In this document: positions 60,316 through 62,023 of the stretch, in pieces
Layout: the number at the start of each line of letters is the position of its first letter
Numbering within the stretch: position 1 is the first letter of the stretch
NCBI GenBank assembly: GCA_020050685.1
Contig: JAGVKG010000029.1
Coordinates: forward strand, 62,001-126,000
Length of the DNA: 64,000 nucleotides
Direction: 5' to 3'
Source of the DNA: Candidatus Obscuribacterales bacterium
Lineage (GTDB): Bacteria > Cyanobacteriota > Vampirovibrionia > Obscuribacterales > Obscuribacteraceae
Notes under the pieces: generated by a model
Told to the model about the DNA's origin: nothing
The model's database searches: none
Seen by the model: the letters and a program-made list of their open reading frames with translations, nothing else
Made by a program: the position numbers and the translations under genes

Positions 60316-61857
60316 TCATTTCTCAAAACCGGCAAATGCTTCTTGGACGAGTTTCTCGAGAAGTGCAGCTTCTGTATCAGTAAGCATGGCAAATTCGCCT
60401 TCGCGTCTTGTCTTTGGTAGCTTCCAGTTGTTCTGGCGCATGAACATAATTAAGTCTTCTGCCTTACGATCGGGCATTTCGACTTCGTTCATAATGCCTT
60501 GCATCGCTTGGTCATGGCGCTTTAAATATTCGATTTCATGCGGCAAGTCACTGTTGATCGTTCGCTCGACGCATCGGTAGAGAAATTCGCAAGCCTCTGT
60601 GCAATCAAAGTAGCGATAAAGGTCAGCAGTGTCGTTGGTTACCTCTACATTACCCTTTGTTGTTGGCTGCCATTCTATAAAAGGCATAAGTGGTGCTGAG
60701 TGATTTTGAAGGACATTTCGATATTCATTTATCCAGTCAAGCATTACTGATGATACTGGAAATACCAGCCCGGGCGGTGAGTAATTGCGCTGTGTCAGAA
60801 CATGATGAATGAGATAGCGGTGCAAACGACCGTTACCATCTTCAAAGGGATGAATATAGACAAAGCCGAATGCGATAGCTGCTGCTTGCAAAACGGCATC
60901 GAGCTGCGACGTGTTCATGAGATGATTGGCATCAATGAGCGCGGACATCAATTCTTCAAGATCATTTGGGCGGGCACCGATGAATTCCGGTAATGGTTCT
61001 CCATCAGTTGCTCTCTCTCCAATAAATACGCCTTCCTTGCGGAAGTTTGTTTGAGTGAACTTGCTATCTTCAATCAAGACTTTATGCAGACGTATAATTT
61101 CGGCCGAAGTCAAATCATGTCTGCCGGCTTGCTGAATCGCTCTGCCCCAGCGTTCTAAACGATTGCGCGCCGGGCGCTCGCCTTCGATTTCAAAGCTGGC
61201 GCGACTGTCAGCCAATAGCAAGAAGCTTGCTGCACGTGCAACTGTGCGTGAACTTATTTTCCCGATAATTTGTTGGGCTTTGATTGCATATTCTTGATCT
61301 ACATAGTGTGTGAGTTTTTCGCTCCGCCTGATTATTGGGCAGAAGAGTGAATTTCCCAATAGGTTGTTGCGAACTTTATGTCGTTTCGAGACAAGACCCG
61401 CTGCGGCAAAATATTTCTTCGCATCAAGGACATCTATGGTTGTCACTTTTGGTGCGTCAGCAATTTTTAGTTTCTTGCCGGTTAGAAACTCATAGAGAAA
61501 CCAAGCTCGACGATTAGCTATGCCAGTTGGTGCCGATTGCACATATTTTGCCAGATGAGATTCGGGTAGTGCTAAAAAGATGCGCTTGAGCACAAGCAAA
61601 TTCAAATATTCATGCGTAAGGCTAAAAGTCAGATGCGCTTCGAAAGTATTTTCCGGTAGGTAACGTTTGTCAAAAATTCGCCATTCTCGTTCTTGGCGAA
61701 TCGAGCCCTTTACATAATGGTCGGCTACACAGGAGGGATTTCTAACTGGGGCTTGGACGTTCAATGATTGAACAAGTGCAGCTGTACCGGCCAAAGTCGT
61801 CTGAGGCGGGACTTGTTTTTCCTGAAAGTATGGCGATTTCTGCCGTTCCAATTTCAT
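60316..61857 (-). CDS. Fic-domain protein (probable AMP transferase)
   Basis: About 513 residues from ATG 61857. The Fic motif HPFEDGNGRLHRYLIHH near residues 333-350 is complete (catalytic His, GNGR-x2-R), so activity is expected. Upstream, SFEIEG near residue 218 fits the inhibitory (S/T)xxxE(G/N) helix; Glu would block ATP binding, as in class II Fic proteins. The flap ILTPEFIG-like GEPLPEFIGARP precedes it. The N-terminal ~200 residues are unusual and the C-terminal part is helical/winged-helix-like. Targets unknown. Its start lies at one end of a seven-copy TTTTCGACC array that probably regulates it. Confidence 0.92.
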   Translation of the reverse strand: MKLERQKSPYFQEKQVPPQTTLAGTAALVQSLNVQAPVRNPSCVADHYVKGSIRQEREWRIFDKRYLPENTFEAHLTFSLTHEYLNLLVLKRIFLALPESHLAKYVQSAPTGIANRRAWFLYEFLTGKKLKIADAPKVTTIDVLDAKKYFAAAGLVSKRHKVRNNLLGNSLFCPIIRRSEKLTHYVDQEYAIKAQQIIGKISSRTVARAASFLLLADSRASFEIEGERPARNRLERWGRAIQQAGRHDLTSAEIIRLHKVLIEDSKFTQTNFRKEGVFIGERATDGEPLPEFIGARPNDLEELMSALIDANHLMNTSQLDAVLQAAAIAFGFVYIHPFEDGNGRLHRYLIHHVLTQRNYSPPGLVFPVSSVMLDWINEYRNVLQNHSAPLMPFIEWQPTTKGNVEVTNDTADLYRYFDCTEACEFLYRCVERTINSDLPHEIEYLKRHDQAMQGIMNEVEMPDRKAEDLIMFMRQNNWKLPKTRREGEFAMLTDTEAALLEKLVQEAFAGFEK

Positions 61858-62023
61858 AGTCGAAAAGCCTTCACCGTGGTCGAAAGTAGCTATATTTTGC
61901 CACAAAAGGTCGAAAAGTATTCACTTTTATTATCGCGGGTCGAAAATTAATGTTCGAGCCTTGGTCGAAAACACCCCATCGGCGTCGAATTTCCCTCACC
62001 TTGTGGTATTCCGGTCGAAAAAT
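61858..62023 (-). promoter_or_regulatory. Seven-copy, helically phased TTTTCGACC array upstream of fic
   Basis: On the plus strand, GGTCGAAA-type units begin at 61858 (A for the first G), 61878, 61908, 61938, 61963, 61983 (CGTCGAAT) and 62013. Start-to-start steps are 20, 30, 30, 25, 20 and 30 bases, mostly whole turns of B-DNA. Read toward fic the unit is TTTTCGACC. All copies have the same orientation and the intervening bases are not similar. This looks like an operator array for a protein that binds along one face of the DNA. Confidence 0.75.

Follow-up and report, generated by a model that had tools for sequence, protein, structure and literature searches.

The window, by which we mean the whole stretch of DNA analysed (64,000 nucleotides), contains a stand-alone fic gene on the minus strand (60316..61857), whose neighbours are a globin gene and a glycosyltransferase-like gene. 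It encodes a protein of 513 amino acids in which Fic is the only Pfam domain (E=3.6e-16), and a Pfam search of the family likewise found nothing consistent apart from Fic. The protein is a member of PADLOC PDC-S24 (PDLC04966) and matches that profile over its full length (residues 20-509 on profile positions 4-490 of 497; E=5.9e-183). PADLOC lists PDC-S24 as a candidate single-gene phage-defence system; the entry is a sequence model only, with no operator described, and the name was not met in a literature search. The catalytic Fic motif HPFEDGNGR (residues 336-344; 60826..60852, minus strand) agrees with the class II pattern HPFx[D/E]GN[G/K]R and is near-invariant in 36 aligned proteins. An inhibitory pattern, [S/T]xxxE[G/N], is found N-terminal to it as S221-FEI-E225-G226 (61180..61197, minus strand), a putative motif assigned by sequence pattern alone, and in the alignment E225 and E227 are invariant. 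By both motifs the protein is a putative class II AMP-transferase. No linked antitoxin gene lies beside fic in the window, and the annotated relatives have no common neighbour.

The full-length AlphaFold model is confident (mean pLDDT 86.8). Its Fic part matches known Fic structures, and CbFic2 is among the best full-length matches. The N-terminal 200 residues are modelled at pLDDT 88.4; within them lies a candidate DNA-reading domain (residues 20-131; 61465..61800, minus strand) that varies with the repeat word described below. Foldseek searches with this domain against the PDB and BFVD returned no relative, and it matched no known DNA-binding fold. A second region that varies with the word is formed by three helices at the C-terminus (residues 456-513; 60319..60492, minus strand).

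The repeat array and the fic promoter

Seven direct copies of the word (C)TTTTCGACC, read toward fic and all in a single orientation, precede the gene, with core starts at 61859, 61879, 61909, 61939, 61964, 61984 and 62014 (GTCGAA on the plus strand, TTCGAC toward fic). These positions confirm the seven same-direction copies and the steps of 20, 30, 30, 25, 20 and 30 bases that had been reported in the first-pass annotation. Exact GGTCGAAA is present in five of the seven copies; the two that deviate are copy 6, with CGTCGAATT, and the one at the start of fic, with AGTCGAAAA. Copy 1 (CTTTTCGACT; 61858..61866, with the left arm GGTGAA upstream) ends one base ahead of the fic ATG (complement of 61855-61857), bearing out the earlier statement that the first copy abuts the start codon. 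It is followed, moving away from the gene on the same minus strand, by copy 2 (CTTTCGACC; 61878..61886), copy 3 (TTTTCGACC; 61908..61916, left arm AGTGAA), copy 4 (TTTTCGACC; 61938..61946), copy 5 (TTTTCGACC; 61963..61971), the degenerate copy 6 (AATTCGACG; 61983..61991, left arm GGTGAG) and copy 7 (TTTTCGACC; 62013..62021). It had also been proposed that all of the sites lie on one face of the DNA; this holds within copies 1-4 and within copies 5-7 but not between these two groups, since the 25-base step from copy 4 to copy 5 is half a helical turn out. The gap between fic and the globin gene, the next gene upstream, is 237 bases, so the array occupies most of the intergenic region.

The clustering of the word is far beyond chance, as seven of the 29 GTCGAA/TTCGAC cores in the 64-kb window are packed into 160 bases. 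Frequent occurrence of the 9-mer throughout the genome would have counted against a selected array; GGTCGAAAA was found only 25 times in 4.2 Mb, four times inside the array and otherwise always singly. A loose three-copy pattern, searched for genome-wide, gave no match besides the window array, and when the entire window was scanned for triplets at 20/30 spacing with a score of 24 of 30 or more, the array and one other site came up.

A -10 element, CAAAAT, is predicted inside the 30-base interval from copy 3 to copy 2 (61894..61899, minus strand). It is weak here; in orthologs the element lies at the same offset and often reads TGnTATAAT or TAAAAT. When 25 promoters were aligned on copies 1-3, the first base of a TATAAT-like hexamer fell 14-16 bases ahead of the core of copy 2. 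These promoters show no evident -35 hexamer at the canonical spacing; a canonical -35/-10 promoter was set aside, and an extended -10 fits better. Transcription would then start at about copy 2, with copies 3 and up lying upstream of the start, which suggests that the array acts as DNA and not as RNA. Copies 1 and 3 agree closely over offsets -3 to +6, which is the word itself, and once more at -8/-7, the GA of a left arm GTGA that lies about one turn from the word. In the clade of the window, copy 1 stands in for the Shine-Dalgarno sequence (TTTTCGACTATG; 61855-61866). In Agrobacterium-type members (L039) the array lies 13-16 bases further upstream, and AGGAGG is found between copy 1 and the ATG.

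The array grid is kept across phyla while the word changes

The source genome belongs to Candidatus Obscuribacterales, and about 16 genomes of the same family carry an ortholog of 55-61% identity. A comparison of upstream regions from relatives showed that the array is kept with fic, though the word differs: in the same-family orthologs the array again runs up to the start codon, built from a word unlike that of the window. Searching the relatives for the 9-mer of the window was the wrong target, as the grid alone is common to them. The word is TTTTCC[A/G]CC at seven loci (L006, L008, L011, L013, L014, L018 and L020) and TTTGGAACC or TTTGGACCC at nine others (L007, L009, L010, L012, L015-L017, L019 and L021). 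Of the orthologs with 28-61% protein identity, whether from Obscuribacterales, from other bacteria or from viral contigs, most have an array in the same place, with words that include TTTTCCACC, TTTGGAACC, TTTTCGATA, TTTTCATG and TTAGCGTTTT; TTTTCGAC and TTTGGAAC members are among the family. Plasmid-borne members with arrays were found in Alphaproteobacteria, Campylobacterota, Bacteroidota and Gammaproteobacteria. A Sinorhizobium plasmid member (K101) uses TTTTCGACC, identical to the window word, and a Pseudomonas aeruginosa plasmid member uses AGTTAAGAAT; the word is TTTTCGATA in Agrobacterium, TTTTCATG in Phaeobacter and Bosea, TATAATTACT in Adhaeribacter and GTTTTCATAC in Ketogulonicigenium. 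The viral-contig members, some merely 28-37% identical, likewise have 20/30 arrays.

To quantify the grid, 9-mers differing at no more than one position were paired and counted by lag over the 170 bases that lead up to the start of each of 46 family genes, with dinucleotide shuffles as the control. A repeat was found at lag 20 in 19 of the 46 loci, at lag 30 in 19, at lag 50 in 22 and at lag 51 in 13, against a shuffle expectation of about one locus at each lag; lags 25, 35, 40 and 45 gave 2, 0, 1 and 0 loci. Enrichment at 20 and 30 with lag 40 at background means that the geometry is specific, beyond a placement on the same face. The best 20/30 triplet scored at least 22 in 33 of the 46 family promoters, as against 0.5% of random stretches of the window. 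Where the Fic gene had another architecture, promoters from the same genomes scored 13-18 in 21 of 22 cases, with one scoring 20. The 20/30 array is thus specific to the PDC-S24 Fic family and absent from the other Fic architectures in these genomes, and its grid is kept across several bacterial phyla whilst the word changes by lineage, sampling beyond the phylum being made up of plasmids and viral contigs. That orthologs keep the array on the same grid supports the earlier view of a selected, phased array of binding sites for fic.

Several observations concern the margins of the family. By the triplet-score method the array is weak or absent in three distant members (L041, L045 and L047). Before another distant member, on a Spartinivicinus plasmid (L088, about 855-975), lies a near-perfect 20-base tandem, GTAAGTGTTTTTCTGGATTT, in which the left-arm word is GTAAGTG, the conserved word of distant clades being located to the left of the T-run. 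C-terminal fragments alone occur in one Obscuribacterales genome (L076, G021:C101:19000-27000; residues 439-511) and on Rhizobium beringeri plasmids (L086, 2513-2938; residues 368-511), and are probably decayed copies. An AAA family ATPase gene directly follows fic on the same strand in Fuscovulum and Phaeobacter (L049, 3131-4539; L055, 3011-4482), and some members may thus be two-gene units. The scan of viral contigs yielded eight members with an alignment as query and none with a single query sequence; those on IMG/VR contigs (L078-L085) may be proviral or lie on misassigned host contigs. No family member was found in annotated phage genomes, nor in E. coli genomes by a DNA search with a Pantoea relative.

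The reader of the array and the proposed self-repression

Word differences were compared with local protein distances at 30 loci, with whole-protein distance removed and the words assigned by eye using DNA alone. The windows that stood out were residues 40-86, 107-126 and 460-484, and the Fic core did not. For residues 35-131 the partial r was 0.37 (simulated P 0.003 or less) and for residues 456-513 it was 0.22 (P about 0.01), the limits of both segments having been chosen after the scan was viewed; for the Fic core the partial correlation was negative (P above 0.95). When words simulated along the protein tree served as the control, the top value among all windows had P values of 0.11, 0.03 and 0.00 at three assumed rates. 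It is therefore suggestive, and not proof, that word differences track the N-terminal domain (35-131) and more weakly the C-terminus, but not the catalytic core, since the segments were delimited once the scan had been seen and the grouping of words is for the most part that of the protein tree. Fic itself is probably the reader of the array.

A row of repeats on a kept grid with a changing word is found most likely because Fic reads the row to shut down its own gene. We give a probability of roughly 0.7 to the reading in which the array is the fic operator, Fic binds its copies cooperatively and represses its own gene, and the N-terminal domain and C-terminus have drifted with the word. Each copy would consist of two parts within about 17 bp, GTGA-N4-TTTTCGACC: a left arm that is conserved and, roughly one helical turn from it, a right word specific to the lineage. 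Fic would occupy the copies cooperatively and in one orientation, the 20/30-bp grid being dictated by the protein. The word would be read chiefly by the N-terminal domain (about residues 20-131), assisted by the C-terminus (about 456-513), and both regions would have drifted in step with it. Bound Fic would mask the sites where transcription (copy 2) and translation (copy 1) begin, as well as the -10 in the gap that separates copy 3 from copy 2. With these two copies occupied by a repressor, the -10 would be blocked. We infer that fic, with its promoter covered, would be repressed by its own product, by which the potentially toxic AMP-transferase would be kept at a low level.

Autoregulation of the gene for a Fic-fold toxin is a feature of Doc/Phd and other type II toxin-antitoxin operons. 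Such operons have an antitoxin gene, whereas the window fic is without one and has its putative inhibitory motif in the same chain. A further parallel is CccR of Yersinia pseudotuberculosis, a Fic toxin known to shut off its own promoter through an inverted repeat; its operator consists of two inverted 10-bp repeats, AGATAATCAT-N26-ATGATAATCT, bound by a dimer with a C-terminal HTH (PMC9755527). By analogy, the PDC-S24 Fic is a probable self-repressor in the manner of CccR, both being single-gene Fic enzymes with binding sites (predicted here) in their own promoters. In contrast to the inverted repeats of CccR, the PDC-S24 family has direct repeats, 4-7 in number and set on a 20/30 grid; its protein (513 aa in the window) has an apparently unrelated N-terminal domain, and its word shifts between lineages. 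An inverted-repeat search found no matching pair built from the word. CbFic2 of Coxiella burnetii was tested with random DNA (PMC10628234, PDB 8cil) and shares with the window protein the class II architecture with an N-terminal inhibitory motif and DNA binding (predicted here). Unlike PDC-S24, it has a DUF4172 domain and a DeoR-type HTH, and no promoter array is described for it (PMC10628234). The literature search for Fic operators found only CccR-type inverted repeats and CbFic2. Fic autorepression on inverted repeats is thus already known, and what is added here is the direct-repeat array, its conserved grid and its drifting word.

It is unlikely that the array is instead read by a separate host transcription factor, a repressor or an activator whose gene lies elsewhere. 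Ordinary regulators commonly use phased direct repeats placed around a promoter, but this Fic is often plasmid-borne and patchy in distribution, the grid nevertheless accompanies it from phylum to phylum, and close genera differ in their word. Two paralogs in one genome (G046) have different words, TGGAACC (L017) and TTCCGTG (L066), which argues against one host reader. The neighbours of fic differ among the annotated loci, so a linked regulator is conserved nowhere, and no second cluster of the word exists in the genome. Very improbable, in our view, is an origin of the repeats as a by-product of transposon ends, plasmid iterons, a centromere or a leader RNA. Iterons and centromeres do have direct repeats at helical spacing and many members are located on plasmids; against this, the array lies at the fic promoter in every case, whether on a plasmid or on a chromosomal contig, with no constant adjacent transposase or replication gene, and arrays apart from fic and paired with a transposase or rep gene were not seen in the genomes examined. 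The copies also flank the -10 on both sides, so that most of them lie outside the transcript.

Somewhat less likely than a host factor is a reading in which Fic binds the array mainly to park or control its own enzyme activity, as a storage or sensor site, with control of transcription secondary. CbFic2 has been proposed to turn from an AMPylase into a deAMPylase upon DNA binding (PMC10628234), five to seven copies exceed what a minimal repressor needs, and the family counts as a candidate for defence. Plain repression is nevertheless in keeping with a -10 that lies inside the array and with the array's overlap with the start of fic. Extending the self-repression reading, it is possible, although the odds are against it, that the N-terminal domain is a new type of DNA-reading domain seen only in this Fic family, that its specificity co-diversifies with the operator and so insulates paralogs, and that the DNA-bound enzyme is inactive until its occupancy is disturbed, for example by phage infection.

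For the family, the analysis predicts a function for the N-terminal domain of the PDC-S24 Fic and a control mechanism for a widespread candidate defence enzyme. With a spacing that would be fixed by the protein whilst the DNA word drifts, the PDC-S24 arrays may offer an experimentally easy system, whose many natural pairs of protein and cognate word would allow the study of how DNA specificity evolves.
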